Part shown: positions 32,848 to 41,660 of the stretch, piece after piece | Position numbering within the stretch: the first letter of the stretch is position 1 | Layout: the number at the start of each line of letters is the position of its first letter | Source: Hyalangium gracile | GTDB lineage: Bacteria; Myxococcota; Myxococcia; Myxococcales; Myxococcaceae | Reading direction: 5' to 3' | Assembly: GCF_020103725.1 (NCBI RefSeq) | Contig: NZ_JAHXBG010000011.1 | Span: 186,001 to 250,000, forward strand | DNA: 64,000 nucleotides | Program-made: the position numbers and the translations under genes | The notes under the pieces: model-generated | Told to the model about the DNA's origin: nothing | Databases searched by the model: none | Seen by the model: the letters and a program-made list of their open reading frames with translations, nothing else

Positions 32848-32946
32848 TCCCCGCTCCTGTTCGCGGCACCCCAGCGGGTGCCTTCACCGCGGCGCGACCT
32901 CCCACCGGGGGCCGCGCCGCTGTCGTGTGGACCCCCCCCTGTCACC

Positions 32947-34119
32947 ATGAACTCGCTCCCTCTGTCCGGCCTCAAGGTGCTGGATCTCTCCCGGCTGCTG
33001 CCCGGGCCGTACGCCACGCTCGTCCTCGCGGACCTGGGCGCCACCGTGGACAAGGTGGAGGACCCCGACGGCGGCGACTACATCCGCCAGATGCCCCCCC
33101 TGCGCGACGACGAGAGCGCGCTCTTCTACGGGCTCAACCGCAACAAGCGCTCGCTGACGCTCAACCTCAAGACGCCCCAGGGCCGCGACGCGCTCAAGCG
33201 CCTGGTGCGCGGCTATGACGTGCTGGTGGAGAGCTTCCGGCCCGGCGTCATGGACAAGCTCGGGCTGGGCGAGGCCGCCCTGCGCGCGGAGAACCCGCGC
33301 CTCATCTACTGCGCCATCTCCGGGTACGGGCAGACGGGGCCGGACCGGCTCAAGGCGGGGCATGACATCAACTACGTCGCCCGCGCCGGGGTGCTCGGGT
33401 ACGGCGGCGCGGCGGGCGGCGCACCGGCCTTCCCGGGCGTGCAGATCGGCGACATCGGCGGCGGCAGCCTCTTCGCGCTGGTGGGCATCCTCGCGGCGCT
33501 GCACGAGCGCGAGCGCACCGGCCAGGGCCGCTTCGTGGACGTGTCCATGACGGAGGGCTCCATGGCCTTCCTGCACATGCACCTGGCCGCGCGGCTCGTC
33601 ATGGGCGAGCAGGGCCAGCCGCTCCAGCGAGGGCGCGAGGGGCTCAACGGCGGCTACGCCTGCTACGGCCTCTACCGCACGAAGGATGACCGGTGGCTGG
33701 CCGTGGGCTCGCTGGAGCCCAAGTTCTTCGCCGGCCTGTGTGAGCGGCTGGGGCGCATGGATCTGCTCGAGTCCGGCTACGAGCTGGGGCAGGGCGCGGA
33801 GCGGGCCAAGGCCGAGCTGGCGCGCCTCTTCGCCGAGCACCCCCTGGCCCACTGGCAGCAGCTGCTGGCCGGCACCGACCTGTGCATCGAGCCCGTGCTG
33901 GAAGGCGACGAGGTGCTCGCCGATCCCCAGCACCGCGCCCGAGGCCTCTTCGTCGAGGCGGAGGATCCGCAGCGGGGGCGCAAGGTGACCCACCTGCTCA
34001 CACCTCTGCGCATGGGCGACACGCCGCTGCGCCCACCCCCGGCCCTGGGACAGCACTCGCGGGAAATCCTCTCCCAGGCCGGCTTTACCGCCGAAGAGCT
34101 GGCCCAGCTGGGACTCTGA
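32947..34119 (+). CDS. CaiB/BaiF family CoA-transferase
   Basis: 390 residues, class III CoA-transferase. Family blocks: LKVLDLSRLLPGPYATLVLADLGA with VDKVEDPDGGDY, then NRNKRSLTLNLKTPQG, catalytic-Asp region INYVARAGVLGYGG and FVDVSMTEGSMAFL. Moves CoA between an acyl-CoA and a carboxylic acid (racemase homologues such as alpha-methylacyl-CoA racemase share the fold). The substrate is unknown; the SCP2 and ACP-linked neighbours suggest fatty or branched acyl groups. Confidence 0.88.
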   Translation: MNSLPLSGLKVLDLSRLLPGPYATLVLADLGATVDKVEDPDGGDYIRQMPPLRDDESALFYGLNRNKRSLTLNLKTPQGRDALKRLVRGYDVLVESFRPGVMDKLGLGEAALRAENPRLIYCAISGYGQTGPDRLKAGHDINYVARAGVLGYGGAAGGAPAFPGVQIGDIGGGSLFALVGILAALHERERTGQGRFVDVSMTEGSMAFLHMHLAARLVMGEQGQPLQRGREGLNGGYACYGLYRTKDDRWLAVGSLEPKFFAGLCERLGRMDLLESGYELGQGAERAKAELARLFAEHPLAHWQQLLAGTDLCIEPVLEGDEVLADPQHRARGLFVEAEDPQRGRKVTHLLTPLRMGDTPLRPPPALGQHSREILSQAGFTAEELAQLGL

Positions 34120-34224
34120 GTTCGGCCAGGGGTGGCATTTCCCCACTGACGTGTCGGGGCGGGCATCCACCGGTGAACCCATCAGGTGGGGAGTTTCTTG
34201 GCATTCTTCTCAAACTATTGGAAA

Positions 34225-34238
34225 CTACATGCATGTAG
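34225..34238. promoter_or_regulatory. Perfect 14-bp palindrome upstream of the ACP-desaturase cluster
   Basis: CTACATGCATGTAG ends 22 bases before the first ACP ATG, just before GGAGG. The surrounding stretch 34190-34240 is AT-rich compared with the region. A likely operator or promoter-proximal site for the whole pathway; the regulator is unknown. Confidence 0.45.
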
Positions 34239-34260
34239 CTGACGTTTCCGGGAGGAAGCC

Positions 34261-34551
34261 ATGGCTGAGATCGACGAGCTGAAGAACTTCATTTGCCGGA
34301 AGTTCTCTGAAAACGTGGGTTTGGAGCCTGAGGAACTCTTCGGGCGGGATCTGTCCCTGGCGGAGGTGATCACCCGCTCGGAGCGGCTGAAGAACAGCGT
34401 GGACCTGATGGAGGTGTTCGCGAAGTGTTCGAACACCCTGCGCAAGCAGTACGGCATCCGGGTCCGGCTGCCGGCGCTCTCGCTGGACACGCCCATCTCC
34501 CGCGTCGTCGAGCTGTTCGTGCAGGAGTGTCAGCACGGGAGGGCTGCGTGA
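34261..34551 (+). CDS. Dedicated acyl carrier protein 1
   Basis: 96 residues, size and helix pattern of an ACP. The phosphopantetheine serine is probably Ser46 in KNSVDLMEVF, a variant of the usual DSLDxVE motif. Helix 4 region is LSLDTPISRVVELFVQE. It differs from a fatty-acid-synthesis AcpP in its sequence and context, so it is probably a pathway-specific carrier. CGGGAGGAAGCC precedes the ATG. Its stop overlaps the desaturase start (TGATG). Strongly similar to the second ACP (35774). Confidence 0.82.
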   Translation: MAEIDELKNFICRKFSENVGLEPEELFGRDLSLAEVITRSERLKNSVDLMEVFAKCSNTLRKQYGIRVRLPALSLDTPISRVVELFVQECQHGRAA

Positions 34552-35543
34552 TGGGTACCGCCTTCCTGCACCAGGTGTCCAACGTCGGCGCGCACGAGCG
34601 GCGCCTCTTCGAATTGAGCGGGCTGTCCGAGGGGCGCTCCGGCTCGAGCCGCAGGCCGGTGGTGATCGCGGAGCTGTACCGCGCCTTCCGGGAGGAGGGC
34701 CGCACGCTGGTGGAGATCCTGTGGGAGCAGCACCGCTTCCACGAGGCGCGCCGGTGGAACGCCGTGGAGCTGGTGGAGTCGGTGCGCCCCGAGCACCTCA
34801 CCGAGCTGGATCGGCTCGTCGTCTGGAGCGCGGGGCAGGCGGAGATGACGGCCAAGCCCAGCGCGGATCGGATGACGCGCCTGGCGGACGCGGAGTGCCG
34901 GCGCTGGCAGGGCAAGGACGACGCGCTGGCCTCCGTCATCCAGGCGCTCGGCTCGTGGAGCCGCTACTGGAACGAGGAGGAGTCCCACCACGAGATGGGC
35001 TTCACGCAGCTGTCGCTCCAGCTGGGCTTCCCTCCGCCCAGCGACGCCACCGTCATCGACTATCGCAAAATCTTCCCGGATGACGATCTGCTGCGGACGG
35101 TGGCGATGCTCTCCTTCTCCGAGGGCATCGCCGCGGTGAACTACGGCCAGTACGCGCGGCATGTGAGGGAGCCGGCCCTCAAGGCCCTGCTCAAGAACGT
35201 GGGCGCCGACGAGGTGCAGCACATGCAGTACTTCATCTCGTTCTCCAAGGCGCTCGTCGACAGCGGGGCGTATCCCGCCAAGGAGGCCTTCGCCGTGGCC
35301 CACCTCTTCCTGCGGGAGGGGGGAGAGCTCTACGGCAGCGCCCGCGAGCATGTGGAGTCACGAAATACCCATACCAACTGGTGGGACCACCTCGGGGACG
35401 GGGCCGGCGAGGCGGCGGTGACTCCCGAGGCGCTCGAGCGCAAGCGGTCCCTCATCCTGCACGCGCTCAAGCGCATCACCGGGATCTCCTGCGCCACACC
35501 CCAGGAGGTTGAGGATCTCTGGATGGACCTGGTGGGAGAGTGA
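34551..35543 (+). CDS. Soluble ferritin-like diiron acyl-ACP desaturase/oxygenase 1
   Basis: 330 residues. The iron ligands expected for the stearoyl-ACP desaturase family are visible: Glu in QAEMTAKPSADRM, Glu and His in WSRYWNEEESHHE, Glu in LSFSEGIAAVNYGQYAR, and Glu and His in VGADEVQHMQYF. The spacing matches the E/ExxH + E/ExxH pattern. No membrane helix, so it acts on an acyl chain held by a carrier protein in the cytoplasm. The product could be a double bond, hydroxyl or similar; the position on the chain cannot be read. Coupled with ACP 1, which overlaps its start. Confidence 0.82.
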   Translation: MGTAFLHQVSNVGAHERRLFELSGLSEGRSGSSRRPVVIAELYRAFREEGRTLVEILWEQHRFHEARRWNAVELVESVRPEHLTELDRLVVWSAGQAEMTAKPSADRMTRLADAECRRWQGKDDALASVIQALGSWSRYWNEEESHHEMGFTQLSLQLGFPPPSDATVIDYRKIFPDDDLLRTVAMLSFSEGIAAVNYGQYARHVREPALKALLKNVGADEVQHMQYFISFSKALVDSGAYPAKEAFAVAHLFLREGGELYGSAREHVESRNTHTNWWDHLGDGAGEAAVTPEALERKRSLILHALKRITGISCATPQEVEDLWMDLVGE

Positions 35544-35773
35544 TCTTTGGTGCAGACCTGTATTGAAATGGCGCGTCATTGATTGTTAGCTGCCGAGCGA
35601 GCAGGGGGAAGGGTTGGGTACACGCTGTCCTGGTCGCGCCTGGCTGGCGGCCGGACAGTCACGCCTCTCCTCTCGTCACGTGGGGAGACTCCCTTCTCTG
35701 TGATGGATGAAAGCCCGTGCCGGTGGGGAGGACCCGACTCCACCGGCCTGGGCTCGATCAACGCGAGGAGCCG
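35544..35773. other. Gap between the two ACP-desaturase units
   Basis: 230 bases with a locally AT-rich part (35556-35590, TATTGAAATGG..CATTGATTG) that may hold a promoter, but no convincing -35/-10 pair. No gene is supported here. The second unit begins with its own ribosome-binding site GAGGAG. Confidence 0.4.
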
Positions 35774-36070
35774 ATGGCTGACACCGGTGAGCTGAAGGCG
35801 TACATCCAGAAGAAGTTCTGTGAGAATGTGGGACTGCCCGCGGAGGAGGTCTTCGGACCCGATCTGACGCTGGCGGCGATCATCTCCCGCTCCGAGCGGA
35901 TGACCAACAGCGTGGACCTGATGGAGTCGTTCGCGCGCACGGCCAATGCCCTGCGCAAGGATCACGGCATCCGGATCCGCCTGCCGGCGCTCGCGCTGGA
36001 CACGCCCATCTCCAAGGTGCTCGAGGTGTTCCTGCAGGAAGTCGAGCGCAGCCAGGGGAGGGCGGCATGA
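35774..36070 (+). CDS. Dedicated acyl carrier protein 2
   Basis: 98 residues, clearly a paralogue of ACP 1: the blocks SRSERMTNSVDLMESF and IRLPALALDTPISKVLEVF match almost residue by residue, including the putative pantetheine Ser in TNSVDLME. GAGGAGCC lies before the ATG. The stop overlaps the start of the second desaturase (ATGA). Together with ACP 1 it shows that the ACP-desaturase pair was duplicated as a unit. Confidence 0.82.
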   Translation: MADTGELKAYIQKKFCENVGLPAEEVFGPDLTLAAIISRSERMTNSVDLMESFARTANALRKDHGIRIRLPALALDTPISKVLEVFLQEVERSQGRAA

Positions 36071-37077
36071 AGACGCCCACCGTGATCATCGACGGGAGCA
36101 GCGAAGGGGCGCTGCAGCAGCCGCCGCTGCCCGTGGCGCGGCAGCAGCTGGAGATGTCGGGGCTGGCGGACGAGGGCCTGCGCGAGGAAGGCAAGCCGGT
36201 GATCGTCGCGGACCTCTACCGGGCCTTCAAGGAGGAGAAGCGCACGCTCGTGGACATCGCCTGGGAGCAGCAGCGCCTGCACGAGTCTCGGCGCTGGAGC
36301 GTCATGGAGATGCTGGCGGCGATCGACGTGGAGCGGGTGAGCCAGTCGGATCGGCTGCTGGTGTGGAACGCGGGCCGGGCGGAGCTGACCACCAAGCCGG
36401 GCGCGGATCGGCTCGCGCGGCTGTCGGACACCGAGTGCCGAAGGTGGCAGGAGAAGAACCCCGTCGTCGCCTCCATCATGCAGGCGTGCGGCACGTGGAG
36501 CCGCTACTGGAACGAGGAGGAGGCGCACCACGAGACCAGCTTCAACCGGCTGGCCACCCTGTTCGCGATGGATCGCGTCACCGACGAGACGTTCATCGAG
36601 TTCCGCAAGGTGTTCCCGGATGACGACATGCTGCGGACGCTGACGCTGCTGGCGATCTCGGAGATCGTCGCCGCGGTCAACTACGCGAACTGCGCGCGCG
36701 TCATCCAGGAGCCCGGCCTCAAGGCGCTGTTCAAGCAGGTGGGCGCCGACGAGATCCAGCACATGAACTACTTCATCGCCTTCGCCAAGGGGCTGGTGGA
36801 CAGCGCCGAGTACGCGCCCAAGGAGGCGTTCTCGGTGGCCCACTTCTTCCTGCGCGACGGCGGCGAGGTGTACGGCAGCAAGCGCCAGCACGTGGAGCAG
36901 CGCGGCACGCACGTCAACTGGTGGGATCACCTCGAGTACCGCGAGGGGATGTACTCGCCGGACGCCATCGACAAGAAGGAGACGCTCATCTTCAACGCGC
37001 TCAAGCGCATCACCGGCATCACCGTCTCCTCGGCCGAAGAGGTCGAGGACAAGTGGATGGAGCTGGTGGGGTGCTGA
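36067..37077 (+). CDS. Soluble ferritin-like diiron acyl-ACP desaturase/oxygenase 2
   Basis: 336 residues, paralogue of the enzyme at 34551. All diiron ligands are kept: RAELTTKPGADR, WSRYWNEEEAHHE, LAISEIVAAVNYANCAR and VGADEIQHMNYF. The N-terminal ~40 residues differ from paralogue 1, which may set carrier or substrate choice. The two enzymes may act in turn on the same chain (two oxidations) or on different chain lengths. The stop overlaps the GTG start of the phosphopantetheinyl transferase by seven bases. Confidence 0.82.
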   Translation: MKTPTVIIDGSSEGALQQPPLPVARQQLEMSGLADEGLREEGKPVIVADLYRAFKEEKRTLVDIAWEQQRLHESRRWSVMEMLAAIDVERVSQSDRLLVWNAGRAELTTKPGADRLARLSDTECRRWQEKNPVVASIMQACGTWSRYWNEEEAHHETSFNRLATLFAMDRVTDETFIEFRKVFPDDDMLRTLTLLAISEIVAAVNYANCARVIQEPGLKALFKQVGADEIQHMNYFIAFAKGLVDSAEYAPKEAFSVAHFFLRDGGEVYGSKRQHVEQRGTHVNWWDHLEYREGMYSPDAIDKKETLIFNALKRITGITVSSAEEVEDKWMELVGC

Positions 37078-37442
37078 TCGGCCTCGGCCACGATCTGCAG
37101 GTCCTCCATGAGCTGAAGGCGCTGGAGGGCCTGTGGGAGCCCGGGGTGTTCTTCACCGAGGCGGAGACGGACCGCTTTCGCGCCAGCCCCTCGCCGGTGG
37201 AGAGCCTGGCGGCGGGCTTCTCGATGAAGGAGGCCCTGTTCAAGGCGCTGCCTCGGGTGGAGGGCTGGTTCTGGACCGACGCCGAGGTCCACCATGACGA
37301 GCGGCACGCGCCGCGCTTCCGCTTCCACGGGGCGCTGCGCGAGCACATGGAGCGCCACGGCTGGGAGACCCTGCTCTCCATCTCACACAGTGGTGGGTTC
37401 GTCTCGACGGTGGTCATCGTCGCGGCCGCGGCCCGCCCTTGA
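37071..37442 (+). CDS. AcpS-type 4'-phosphopantetheinyl transferase
   Basis: 123 residues, the size of holo-ACP synthases. Magnesium-binding Asp in LIGLGHDLQVL (GIDIVEI in AcpS), the Glu-Lys block LAAGFSMKEALFKALPRV, and the end SISHSGGFVSTVVIVAA match the family. It converts apo-ACP to holo-ACP with CoA. Its position directly after two unusual ACPs suggests it serves them, not the housekeeping ACP. GTG start with GGAG 9 bases upstream, overlapping the desaturase stop. Confidence 0.82.
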   Translation: MLIGLGHDLQVLHELKALEGLWEPGVFFTEAETDRFRASPSPVESLAAGFSMKEALFKALPRVEGWFWTDAEVHHDERHAPRFRFHGALREHMERHGWETLLSISHSGGFVSTVVIVAAAARP

Positions 37443-37897
37443 ACCTTCCTCGCCTGGAGTCCCCTGCCTTGCGCTTCGAAGAATCGTCGCTCACGCTGCG
37501 CGTGCGGCCCAATGATCTGGACAGCCTGGGCCACGTGAACAACGCCACGGCCCTGGAGTACCTGGAGGCGGGTCGCTGGGCGTGGATGGAGCACAACGCC
37601 CTGCGCCGCGGCGGAGGCGTCATCGCCGTCACCATGCGCATCGAGGTGGACTACCGCAAGGAGATCGCCCCGCAGGAGGTGGTGGTCCGCACGCTCCTGC
37701 AGGAGCCCTCGTGGGAGGACCTGCGGGACGAGGATGCGGTCCACTACCGGGTGCGGTTCCACCAGCAGATCCTCGTGGACTCCGGGCGCGTCGTCGCGGT
37801 GGATGCGCTGGTGCAGGCGGCCTTCGTCAGCGCGGCCGATCGCTCGCTGTGCTCGGTGCAGGACTTCCTCGCGTTCGCGCGCCAACCGACTTCCTGA
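37439..37897 (+). CDS. Hotdog-fold acyl thioesterase (4HBT/FatA-like)
   Basis: 152 residues. The block RPNDLDSLGHVNNATALEYLEAGR is the catalytic-loop helix of the 4-hydroxybenzoyl-CoA thioesterase family, with VTMRIEVDYRKEIAPQE as the next strand. It probably hydrolyses the finished acyl chain from ACP or CoA. TTG start overlapping the previous stop (TTGA), so it is expressed with the pathway. Confidence 0.85.
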   Translation: MNLPRLESPALRFEESSLTLRVRPNDLDSLGHVNNATALEYLEAGRWAWMEHNALRRGGGVIAVTMRIEVDYRKEIAPQEVVVRTLLQEPSWEDLRDEDAVHYRVRFHQQILVDSGRVVAVDALVQAAFVSAADRSLCSVQDFLAFARQPTS

Positions 37898-37911
37898 ACA
37901 GAGGTCTCGAC

Positions 37912-38850
37912 ATGATGTCCCAAGCCACTACCGACAGTGCTGCTCCCTCCACGTCCCTGGTTCGGGAGGAGTGGTGGGTCCCCACCAGCGGAGGCCACCA
38001 GCTCCGCGTCCTGCAGGTGCGCACCGAGGCCACGGGCGCCGGAGCACCGGGCGTCCTGTGCCTGCACGGGCTGTTCTCCGACGGGCGCTTCTTCCTGGGC
38101 TCGAATGGAGAGGGGCCGGCGCGCTACTTCATCGATCAAGGGTGCACGGTCTACATCGCGGAGCTGCGGGGGCACGGCGGGAGCCGGTGGCCCGAGAAGC
38201 GGGCGTGGGACTGGAGCTTCGACACGTATGCGCAGCATGACATCCCGGACCTGGTGCGGGCCGTGCGTGCGCGGCACACGGGGCCGCTCTTCCTGCTGGC
38301 CCACAGCATGGCGGGCTACGCGGCGCTCGCGGGGCTGGGGCTCCAGCCGGATGCCCAGCGGATGCTGAGCGGGGTGTGCACGCTGTCCTCGGCGGTGAAC
38401 GACTACAGCGACGGAGGGCTGAAGAAGGCGGTGATGGTGCGCTTCTCCAGCGTGCTGGCCGGGCTGCTCGGCCGGTTCCCCGCCAAGGCGCTCAAGCAGG
38501 GCCCGGCGGACGAGCCCGCCGCGCTCATGAAGCAGTTCGCCGAGTGGGCTGCCACGGGCGCGTTCCGCAGCGTGGACGGGACGACGGACTACTGGCAGGC
38601 GCTGGGGAAGGTGACGGTCCCGGTGTTCGCCGGGGTAGGGGAGGGTGATGTCTTCCATGCCTCTCCGCGTCGGGCCGAGAAGCTGGTGGGGAAGCTGGGC
38701 AGCGGGGACAAGACGTTCGTCATCTGCGGGCGCTCGCACGGGTTTGGGAGCGACTTCGGCCACTTCGACATCCTCCGCGGGAGCCGGGCCCAGAAGGAGG
38801 TCCTCCCGCGGGTCCATGAGTGGATGCGCGCCCACGCGGCGACGGCTTGA
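37912..38850 (+). CDS. Alpha/beta-hydrolase fold protein
   Basis: 312 residues. Oxyanion strand VLCLHGLFSDGRFF, nucleophile elbow LLAHSMAGYAAL (Ser in H-S-M-A-G), acidic residue region AGVGEGDVFHASP and the catalytic His probably in SDFGHFDIL. No signal peptide. Could be a lipase, esterase or a type II thioesterase that edits or releases acyl chains; the operon supports an acyl substrate. AGAGGT precedes the ATG at 37912, 14 bases after the thioesterase. Confidence 0.82.
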   Translation: MMSQATTDSAAPSTSLVREEWWVPTSGGHQLRVLQVRTEATGAGAPGVLCLHGLFSDGRFFLGSNGEGPARYFIDQGCTVYIAELRGHGGSRWPEKRAWDWSFDTYAQHDIPDLVRAVRARHTGPLFLLAHSMAGYAALAGLGLQPDAQRMLSGVCTLSSAVNDYSDGGLKKAVMVRFSSVLAGLLGRFPAKALKQGPADEPAALMKQFAEWAATGAFRSVDGTTDYWQALGKVTVPVFAGVGEGDVFHASPRRAEKLVGKLGSGDKTFVICGRSHGFGSDFGHFDILRGSRAQKEVLPRVHEWMRAHAATA

Positions 38851-38861
38851 GGAGGACGACG

Positions 38862-40580
38862 ATGCTCGACGTCATCCAGCGGTTGGGGGAGATGGAGGGC
38901 CAGCGCGGCCTGAACCTGGTGGAGGACTTCCTCAGCCCGCCCACGCTGCTGCCCTATGCCGAGTTCCCGGCGCGGGTGGCGGCGTACGCGGAGCACTTCC
39001 GGGCGCAAGGCATCCAGCGCGGCGAGCACGTCATCCTCCCGTTCGAGACCGCGGAGGGGGCGTTCTTCTCCCTCTTCGGGCTGATGGAGGTGGGGGCGAT
39101 CCCGCTCTCGGTGAAGCCCTACATCTTCAGCACGCCCCGGCAGAGCTACCGCGAGTTCCTGGGGCGGATCTCCGAGCGGTACCAGGCGCACCGGGTGGTG
39201 GACGTTCCGAGCCTGAGCGGGCTGGAGCTGCCGCTGCGCCGGGTGCCGTTGCCGCCGGCCGGGGCGAAGCGGGAGGGTGTGCGCCTGCGGGAGGTGGGCC
39301 CGGAGGAGCTGGCCTTCGTGCAGTTCTCGTCGGGCTCGACGTCGTTCCCCAAGGGGGTGCCGATCACCCAGCGCAACCTGAGCGCGAACCTGAGGATGAT
39401 CACCCAGCACGACGGCCGGAAGCCCGAGGACTGCGGGGCGATGTGGCTGCCGCTCTACCATGACATGGGGCTGATCGGCCTGCTGACCTGCCTGTACACG
39501 GGTGTGGATGTCTACGTGACGCAGCCAGCCACCTTCCTCATGGATCCGCTGGGCTTCCTGGAGTTCATGTCCGAGCGTCGGGCCACCCTCTCCGTCATCC
39601 CCAACTTCGCGATCGACTACGCGCTGAAGACGATGCGCGAGCTGGAGCCCGAGGATCTCGAGCGGCTGGACCTGTCGGCGCTGCGGACCATCTATCTGGG
39701 CAGCGAGCCCATCAACATCCCGAACCTGGAGCGCTTCACCGAGCTGCTCGTGCCTCGGGGGCTGAAGCGCACGGTCATCAAGCCCTGCTACGGCATGGCC
39801 GAGGCGGTGCTGATGGTCTCCTGCGTGGGGCAGGAAGAGGCGTGGCGTGTCGTCACCGCGCCCAGCGGACAGCCGGCGATCTCGGTGGGACGGCCCCTGC
39901 GGGAGTTCGAGGTGCGGCTGCGAACCGAGGACGGCCGTCTCTGTGGGGAGCGGGAGCTGGGGGAGATCGAGATCCGAGGGGGCAGCCTCGCGGCGTCGTA
40001 CTACCAGGATGAGCGCCCGCTGCGGAACGCGGAGGGCTACTACCCCTCGGGCGATCTGGGCTTCATGCAGGACGGCGAGCTGTTCATCACCGGCCGCATC
40101 AACGATCGCATCAAGATCAACGGGCAGAGCTACTTCTCCAGTGACTTCGAGCAGGCCGTCGAGCGGCTCCCCTTCGTCCGCCCCGGCAGGTCCGTGGTCA
40201 TCCAGGCCGAGGGGCGGGTGGTGGTGCTGGCCGAGGTCAGCCACGCGGGCGTGCTGGAGCAGCGGGCTCAGAGCCAGCGTCAGGTGTGCGAGAAGATCCT
40301 GGAGGCCGTGGGCGTCACGGTGGCGCAGGAGGACGTGCTCTTCATCCGCTACGGGCAGATCCAGAAGACGAGCAGCGGGAAGCTCCAGCGCCGCGCCATC
40401 ACCGAGGCGTACCAGCAGGGACGCGTCCGCATCGCCACTCCGATGGAGCTGCGCGCGGACCTGCTGCGGATGCGCGCCCAGCGGCTCTTCTACGGCTCAC
40501 TGTTCGAGGCTCGGAAGCGCGGCGGCCGGTGGATCCAGTCGGGCCGCGAGGTGCTGCGGCGGTTCTCGGCACGGTCCTGA
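38862..40580 (+). CDS. Fatty acyl-AMP ligase (FAAL)-like AMP-dependent synthetase
   Basis: 572 residues. The P-loop FVQFSSGSTSFPKGVPITQRN, the block WLPLYHDMGLIGLL (typical of FAALs that feed PKS or ACP) and CYGMAEAVLMVS, with GRINDRIKINGQSYFSSDFE as the hinge, place it in the FAAL/acyl-ACP synthetase group rather than acyl-CoA ligases. It would activate a free fatty acid as adenylate and load it on one of the two ACPs, giving the first step of the pathway even though it is the last gene. GGAGG precedes the ATG. The stop abuts the stop of the convergent gene (TGA|TCA). Confidence 0.87.
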   Translation: MLDVIQRLGEMEGQRGLNLVEDFLSPPTLLPYAEFPARVAAYAEHFRAQGIQRGEHVILPFETAEGAFFSLFGLMEVGAIPLSVKPYIFSTPRQSYREFLGRISERYQAHRVVDVPSLSGLELPLRRVPLPPAGAKREGVRLREVGPEELAFVQFSSGSTSFPKGVPITQRNLSANLRMITQHDGRKPEDCGAMWLPLYHDMGLIGLLTCLYTGVDVYVTQPATFLMDPLGFLEFMSERRATLSVIPNFAIDYALKTMRELEPEDLERLDLSALRTIYLGSEPINIPNLERFTELLVPRGLKRTVIKPCYGMAEAVLMVSCVGQEEAWRVVTAPSGQPAISVGRPLREFEVRLRTEDGRLCGERELGEIEIRGGSLAASYYQDERPLRNAEGYYPSGDLGFMQDGELFITGRINDRIKINGQSYFSSDFEQAVERLPFVRPGRSVVIQAEGRVVVLAEVSHAGVLEQRAQSQRQVCEKILEAVGVTVAQEDVLFIRYGQIQKTSSGKLQRRAITEAYQQGRVRIATPMELRADLLRMRAQRLFYGSLFEARKRGGRWIQSGREVLRRFSARS

Positions 40581-41660
40581 TCACCTCCACTCCGCCAGCC
40601 CGTGCGCCGCATGGCACGCGTCGCCGATGAGGTCCAGGTAGAGCTGGGGGTGCTGTTTCGCGAGCGTCTCCGTGTCTCGGAAGGCTCCGGCCTCGCCCAG
40701 CCGGCGGACCGTGGCCTCGAGCAGCTGGTGGGCCCGCGTCACGGCCTGCTGCTGTCTCACCGTGGGACTCCAGCCGCTCTCTCTCCGGTACCTCCCCAGA
40801 GTCTCCAGGAAGTGGCCGTAGAACTTCAGGGACTGGGAGAGCAGCGACATTCGGTAGCGCGGTGCGTCCATGAGCGCTGCCTCATACTGGCGCGCCTCCG
40901 AGCCCAGCCGATAGATGAGCACGTCCACCTGGACGCCCAGTCGCTCGCCCCAGGCCTTGCGCACCGCCGGGTGCCGCGCCCAGCCCGCCACCGCCTGGAA
41001 GAAGTGGAGCCCTCCACAGGGGTGCGCGTAGATGCCCTGCTTCTGCTTGGGCACCTGGGGCAGTCCGGCCTTCATGCCCGCGGACAGGTCCGCGTGCGCA
41101 CGCTCCAGCGTCCCCAGCGCCTCCTCCATCACCGCATCGAAGCGCACCTGCTCGCCCGCGCCGTTGCGGAAGGTCGCCCCGGGCTCGAGCACCTGGCTGA
41201 GTGCATCCAGCGCCCAGGCCCCCTCCGGCGAGCGGGCCAGCTCCGGGCGGAAGTCTCGCTGGAGCTCCTCCACGAGCGCTCCCAGCGTCACTGTCCCCCA
41301 GGCGGTCTGGAACTTCCGGCTCCGCGGAAAGCCCGCAAGCACCAGCGTCTTCACCTGCAGCGCCGGATGCGGCTCCACGGGCGTGCCGTCCGCCGTGAAG
41401 GGCTCGAAGTACAGCCCACGTCCCGTGGGGCCTTCCTCCCGCCGCAGGAAGTCCGAGACGATCACCTCCGCCGCCAGCCGCCCGTCTCGTGCTCGGAAGC
41501 CTCGGCCCTCCAGCGTCACGCCATGAGCCAGCGCCCAGGGATTGCGGGGGTTGGCTCCCTGGGTGCGGCACAGCGCGCGGAGCTGCTCGGCAGTGGCGGA
41601 CGGCGCCGCCGGCGTGGCGGTGGCCAGGCCGAGCAGCAGGAGAGAGGCTGGAAGGAGCAT
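40581..41660 (-). CDS. Secreted protein of unknown function
   Basis: 359 residues with a signal peptide ([14 protein letters not shown]). No family recognised. The mature part is mostly helical with conserved-looking stretches ([57 protein letters not shown]). His and Cys in HPCGGLHF might bind a metal or haem; this is speculation. It ends directly against the FAAL stop and is divergent from the acyl-CoA dehydrogenase gene. Confidence 0.65.

Follow-up and report, generated by a model that had tools for sequence, protein, structure and literature searches.

The window analysed here is a stretch of 64,000 nucleotides from Hyalangium gracile (G000:C11:186001-250000, from an 11.7-Mb genome). It contains a compact set of eight genes, all on the plus strand, that spans positions 34261–40580 in the order ACP1-DES1-ACP2-DES2-AcpS-TE-ABH-FAAL and may form a self-contained cassette for loading, oxidising and releasing free fatty acids. 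The front of the set consists of two pairs, each with a small putative acyl carrier protein (ACP) and a ferritin-like diiron-type protein. ACP1 (34261–34551, 96 amino acids) carries the site NSVDLME and is followed by DES1 (34551–35543, 330 amino acids); ACP2 (35774–36070, 98 amino acids) is followed by DES2 (36067–37077, 336 amino acids). The remaining genes encode an AcpS-type phosphopantetheinyl transferase (37071–37442, GTG start), a hotdog thioesterase of the 4HBT_2 family (TE; 37439–37897, TTG start), an accessory alpha/beta hydrolase (ABH; 37912–38850) and a FAAL-type AMP ligase with a short insertion region (38862–40580).

Six of the seven gene junctions overlap or are at most 14 bases apart. 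The overlaps are 1 nt (ACP1/DES1), 4 nt (ACP2/DES2), 7 nt (DES2/AcpS) and 4 nt (AcpS/TE), and the spacings are 14 nt (TE/ABH), 11 nt (ABH/FAAL) and 230 nt (DES1/ACP2). A recount of starts, stops and junctions thus confirms the initial annotation, made from the sequence alone, in its description of eight plus-strand genes with overlapping or close junctions. The identities it gave to the eight genes also hold, as does the absence of polyketide synthase (PKS) and nonribosomal peptide synthetase (NRPS) genes inside the set. Pfam and NCBIfam assign the AcpS, the hotdog thioesterase, the alpha/beta hydrolase and the AMP ligase, with Pfam scores of 33.2 bits for AcpS (cut-off 25), 54.2 for TE (4HBT_2), 50.2 for ABH (Hydrolase_4) and 156.3 for the ligase, which also has solved relatives. 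The extent proposed earlier began at 34225, which is the first base of a palindrome and not of a gene; the gene set itself, from 34261, stands. This palindrome (34225–34238) is perfect and lies within the arms 34220–34225 and 34244–34249 of a nested inverted repeat (34220–34249) 5' of ACP1, a possible operator. Similar palindromes occur at the same position in H. versicolor (locus L003) and in genome G099 (L042). In L003 one outer-arm pair, read by eye, is altered on both sides.

DES1 and DES2 share 54% identity. Neither matches PF00487, the IPR005804-type desaturase family, at E<=1, and both lean to PF03405, the family of canonical soluble acyl-ACP desaturases. By profile search, the solved protein closest to them is DesA2 of M. 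tuberculosis (1za0, E 2.1e-5), which is an acyl-ACP desaturase. The alignment of DES proteins holds 46 rows, 41 from the family and five from more distant Streptomyces relatives, after removal of five duplicates (L043 twice, L051, L068, L069) and one partial canonical row; L028-L036 are outside the set, and the rows cover only part of the DES-bearing Myxococcota genomes. In DES2 the presumed ligands are E106, E152, H155, E199, E229 and H232. The first four are invariant in all 46 rows, and E229 and H232 are kept in 45. The exception is a metagenome-assembled genome (L026:9902-10759), where ~20 residues spanning the positions of E229 and H232 are gone in frame, through natural loss or assembly error. 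EExxH is present in 46/46 rows and DExxH in 45/46, identical to 7/7 canonical PF03405 proteins from four actinobacterial genomes. The initial annotation had named loss of the diiron ligands in relatives as contrary evidence; the presumed ligands are instead retained, and the soluble diiron-type nature that it gave these proteins finds support.

E106 is presumed to be the first metal ligand by elimination. Two other candidates were set aside: E67 is replaced by Val in five Streptomyces rows, by Asp in two rows and by Met in one, and E123 by Leu in the same five Streptomyces rows. With these excluded, E106 is the sole invariant acidic residue visible in the relevant stretch. The DES model (pLDDT 81) has a helical diiron-type fold, and DES is presumably a soluble, ferritin-like diiron protein.

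The carrier proteins are recognised less directly. None of ACP1, ACP2 and 17 relatives (0/19) has a Pfam match at E<=1, including PP-binding, and a carrier-protein profile has no match among solved structures at E<=5. The site NS[VI]DL[ML][ED], including the serine for phosphopantetheine, is invariant in 46/46 carrier rows, duplicates excluded. In an AlphaFold model of the carrier protein (pLDDT 84.9) a long helix begins at Ser46, as predicted in ACP2, and in this the model resembles acyl carrier proteins. Many ACPs are among its structural matches at Z 6–7.6 (e.g. 4zjb_G, Z 7.6, root-mean-square deviation 2.8, 76 aligned). However, they are outranked by two FtsHi motor-complex chains whose identity is not in the table, and a designed scaffold scores 6.3, Z values of this size being common for helical models; the fold alone therefore does not decide carrier identity. 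ACP1 and ACP2 are taken as carrier proteins because AcpS and FAAL are encoded alongside them, the serine site is conserved and the helix is predicted.

The solved proteins nearest to the cassette ligase are FAALs (3pbk, E 2.3e-57). In EcFAAL, W224, M231 and F279 are reported in excerpts of PMC8460268 as bulky residues that block coenzyme A (CoA). They map to W195, M202 and F249 of the cassette ligase and are kept in 36/36 distinct ligase rows, as is K507. The alignment has 37 rows, with the window protein counted twice, and covers candidates of at least 400 bits, which excludes Xenorhabdus L054 and L063-L067. By sequence comparison the ligase is a FAAL with a reduced insertion. The three CoA-rejecting residues make ACP, not CoA, the likely acceptor, but because the insertion is short this falls short of proof.

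A scan for exact peptides in one genome per species for 84,980 species finds at least 25 loci, a lower bound since exact patterns were required. All 25 contain ACP and DES; TE is present in 24, FAAL in 23, AcpS in 20 and ABH in 18. The loci without FAAL are L016, which stops at a contig edge, and L005. In the latter (L005:7508-12225) an ACP-DES2 pair without TE or FAAL lies near genes for a membrane fatty acid desaturase (PF00487) and an MFS transporter. The order shared by the relatives is ACP-DES-(AcpS)-TE-(ABH)-FAAL, identical in 22 of the 23 FAAL-bearing loci, with FAAL first in L026. Because the same neighbours recur in 25 loci, the grouping is not due to chance. The named hosts are Hyalangium, Citreicoccus, Corallococcus, Streptomyces, Saccharothrix, Frankia and Catellatospora, in addition to metagenome-assembled genomes, and the nearest named match is Hyalangium versicolor (85% for DES2). 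The smallest set, ACP-DES-TE-FAAL, occurs in four genomes of the window's genus (L037, L038, L039, L041).

The cassette is rare and patchy. Whole-genome searches find DES in 24/195 Myxococcota genomes, confined to one family and 4/90 genera, and in 1/396 Actinomycetota, that one being the centre of the search; within the genus of the centre it is found in 8/392 genomes, five of them at 35–39% identity. Three of 72,556 plasmid records carry DES. Two are Nostoc plasmids, both typed conjugative, annotated as small protein-DES-AcpS-TE-ligase and with no annotated PKS or NRPS within ~20 kb of the cassette. The third is a Xenorhabdus plasmid, typed non-mobilizable and annotated as small protein-DES-TE-ABH-ligase. 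The small proteins of the Nostoc and Xenorhabdus plasmid loci bear the ACP site. The same gene order, which the initial annotation had proposed to look for in other Myxococcota genomes, is found there, and also in actinobacteria and on plasmids. A phage reservoir was considered and rejected, as no phage record matches DES at E<=1e-3.

Across much of the family to which the window belongs, a family III CoA-transferase gene (PF02515) and a convergent gene without a Pfam match flank the cassette. In 7 of the 58 family genomes, all searched with both flanks, these directly adjoin, with 16–39 bases between match edges, and in three of the seven (L048-L050) the sites were read and have no cassette gene between the flanks. 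One genome with such a site, G101, carries a cassette on another contig (L044). The adjoining flanks make the cassette look like a transferable unit. The junction (homologues of window 32878–34119 and 40581–41660) also spans 27–28 kb in six genomes (G061-G066) from one genus and 30–36 kb in four (G091-G094) from another. None of these ten genomes has a DES match. The wide junctions may indicate an insertion hot spot.

The eight-gene form is common to the window and H. versicolor (L003, L043). In a tree of the 46 DES rows, window DES1 groups with DES1-type sets (7 rows, 100/100) and window DES2 groups with H. versicolor and the second set of genome G096 (3 rows, 99/100); DES proteins of Xenorhabdus and L026 lie on long branches and their placement is unsure. 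G096 itself has a DES1-type set at the site (L039) and a DES2-type set elsewhere (L040). The FAAL of the window shares 82% identity with its counterpart in the DES2-type set L040 and 67–69% with those of five DES1-type sets. The tree and these identities favour a fusion of two cassette types as the origin of the eight-gene form: a DES2-type set would have replaced the tail of a DES1-type set and left ACP1-DES1 in front.

Some relatives have additional genes nearby. Five loci (L015, L017, L018, L020 and L021) have a second FAAL-like gene to the left of the cassette on the other strand, in a divergent gene group that includes MFS-type genes (5/5), ThiS-like genes (4/5) and acyl-CoA-dehydrogenase-like genes (4/5). 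This arrangement would fit a renewed activation of the acid after its release. For the Streptomyces neighbours that include the ThiS-like gene, a pathway resembling that of sulfenicin was considered and dropped, a literature search having yielded a single unrelated paper. In L020 and L025 an enoyl-CoA-hydratase-like gene lies 3' of FAAL. The more distant L063-L067 (five Streptomyces, 35–39% identity) place their DES in a larger cluster, where ACP, AcpS-like and FAAL-like genes are joined by genes for an aminotransferase, a protein resembling FMN-dependent hydroxyacid dehydrogenases, a carrier protein and a second phosphopantetheinyl transferase. The cluster also encodes a ligase whose best NCBIfam match is the diazotase AvaA6, below the cut-off. 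Open reading frames around both groups of loci come from a crude caller; neighbour families were read on L063 for L063-L067 and on one representative each elsewhere.

The reading we put forward, to which we give about as much credence as doubt, is that the cassette is a self-contained cycle that loads, oxidises and releases free fatty acids and that the set spreads as a unit. AcpS, where present, would prime the dedicated ACP, and FAAL would adenylate a free fatty acid and load it onto this carrier. DES, with O2 and with electrons from outside the cassette, would then dehydrogenate the ACP-bound chain, most likely to a carbon–carbon double bond, and the hotdog thioesterase would release the modified acid. 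What the analysis observes is the content and order of the genes, their spread, the conservation of the presumed ligands and of the carrier site, and the existence of sites with and without the cassette; the metal binding, each catalytic step, the order of the steps, the direction of transfer and the product are inferred. The smallest set retains precisely the parts that such a cycle needs. In the window two ACP/DES pairs would share one FAAL, one AcpS and one thioesterase, which makes two oxidations likely. Desaturation is the first choice of reaction because of the EExxH and DExxH motifs and because the nearest relative is DesA2.

Several observations weigh against this cycle. The cassette-free sites could also have arisen by loss of the set. 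No electron-transfer protein is in the cassette, and a Pfam search of the eight proteins, which covered these only, finds no rubredoxin at E<=1. The FAAL-insertion stretch is 33–34 residues in 36/36 ligase rows versus 52, counted manually, in 3pbk, and most of the EcFAAL insertion region seems to be missing. DES1 and DES2 score 16.2 and 17.4 bits against PF03405, under the cut-off of 22.7, which is passed by 3/4 actinobacterial relatives; judged by profile score, DES is a borderline relative of this family. No canonical Glu aligns with E106, where the seven canonical proteins show gaps or Gly. At E199+3 (residue 202) all 46 DES rows have Ala, whereas 7/7 canonical desaturases have Thr and DesA2 itself has Gly. 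This Thr, T199 in the castor enzyme, matters for oxygen activation. Finally, comparison of folds does not separate desaturases from R2-like oxidases, ribonucleotide reductase R2 or VlmB. R2-like oxidases score Z 17.0, an aldehyde-deformylating oxidase 16.4, VlmB 16.1 and the castor desaturase 15.7 (4v0j_A, rmsd 3.9, 231 aligned), and an attempt to fix the reaction by fold search fails because many diiron folds tie.

The alanine at E199+3 and the tied folds make hydroxylation or cleavage the main rival to desaturation. It is possible, though on balance unlikely, that DES hydroxylates, cleaves or otherwise oxygenates the chain within the same cycle; instead of an alkene this would give a hydroxy acid or one that is shortened or rearranged. 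The uniform Ala202, set against Thr in the canonical enzymes, and the ties with R2-like oxidases, VlmB and the aldehyde-deformylating oxidase speak for such chemistry, but DES has the same motifs as desaturases, and by sequence its closest solved relative belongs to the acyl-ACP desaturases. Chlorination is a far more remote prospect, and we consider it extremely improbable. CylA-CylB-CylC is likewise a trio of FAAL, ACP and ferritin-like diiron enzyme, and DES as a CylC-type halogenase would yield a chlorinated fatty acid. However, the CylC motifs QExxH and HxxDExxH, as given in the portion consulted of PMC12101540, do not occur in DES: Glu replaces Gln in 46/46 rows, and Val or Ile replaces the first His in 45/45 rows that cover it, on which grounds this candidate was rejected.

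Other alternatives concern the fate of the acid. The ACP could hand the modified chain on as the starter unit of a partner pathway, with TE and ABH serving just to clear wrong or stalled chains. This fits the further ligase and metabolite-cluster genes beside the five actinobacterial loci described above, and the ACP-DES-AcpS-FAAL style sets that the five more distant Streptomyces relatives hold inside larger clusters. However, the near-universal presence of TE among the named loci (24/25) and the Nostoc plasmid loci without annotated PKS or NRPS speak for release, and transfer to a partner seems quite unlikely. A role in lipid housekeeping, in which the cell would desaturate salvaged fatty acids for use in its own membranes, is less probable still. 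It would suit the finding that no canonical PF03405 protein was found in the genome of the window or in four other genomes of the family, so that the PF03405 family does not supply this function there, but the patchy presence (24/195 Myxococcota, 8/392 in one actinobacterial genus sample, plasmids) is hard to reconcile with housekeeping. An alkynyl product, one of the outcomes suggested in the initial annotation, has no support, since alkyne cassettes use a different desaturase family.

If the load-oxidise-release cycle is correct, a cell with this cassette could select a free fatty acid, modify it oxidatively on a dedicated carrier and hand it back, independently of fatty acid synthesis and with neither PKS nor NRPS. 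For work on an oxidase subfamily with an altered second shell, the set would be a small soluble system that is easily rebuilt, and it would represent a kind of metabolite cluster missed by PF00487-based searches such as the polyyne survey, as far as the excerpted text of PMC8406139 describes it. The plasmid copies and natural cassette-free sites ease gain and loss experiments. More speculatively, and on balance less likely than not, these loci could make up a class of cassettes not described before, which stand alone, move by horizontal transfer and edit fatty acids with their own carrier family and diiron oxidase subfamily. Myxobacteria, actinomycetes, cyanobacteria and Xenorhabdus would then all make one and the same small, diffusible lipid, which might serve as a signal between species. 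A description of the cassette was not found in open-licence literature, which is no proof of absence from print.

The cassette shares parts with several known systems. Like canonical soluble acyl-ACP desaturases (PF03405) and DesA2, DES has EExxH and DExxH; unlike the canonical proteins, it falls below or near the family cut-off and has Ala for Thr at E199+3. BolL (bolagladin) and AfcN/AfcD (AFC-BC11) are described, in the sections seen of PMC7756342 and PMC12186527, as acyl-ACP-desaturase-like proteins of specialised metabolism, in AFC also with a FAAL. Compared by description and not by sequence, they differ from the cassette in lying within larger lipopeptide clusters. CylA-CylB-CylC and the NocO-type dimetal halogenase trios combine a FAAL, an ACP and a ferritin-like diiron enzyme that acts on ACP-bound chains (PMC12101540, PMC8406957, both in part). 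Unlike these trios, the cassette has no halogenase motifs, has a thioesterase and, as often in its relatives, an AcpS, and no PKS lies inside the eight genes. A parallel in logic is provided by the alkyne and polyyne cassettes (JamABC; protegencin, caryoynencin), which comprise a FAAL, an ACP, desaturases and a thioesterase and are described as widely transmissible; they use IPR005804-type desaturases, with a rubredoxin as a further component in polyyne clusters (PMC8406139, in the extracts available). The window set likewise has a FAAL and a thioesterase (4HBT_2) and would follow the same cycle logic, whereas its oxidase is soluble and ferritin-like, not of the IPR005804 (PF00487) type, and the set has no rubredoxin. 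The contrast that the initial annotation drew with JamABC is borne out in this respect, as neither DES1 nor DES2 matches PF00487. By these comparisons the cassette is neither a JamABC/polyyne cassette nor a CylC-type system, but it would work like the former. What appears to be new is a predicted soluble, ferritin-like oxidase in a cassette with the logic of the polyyne cassettes.

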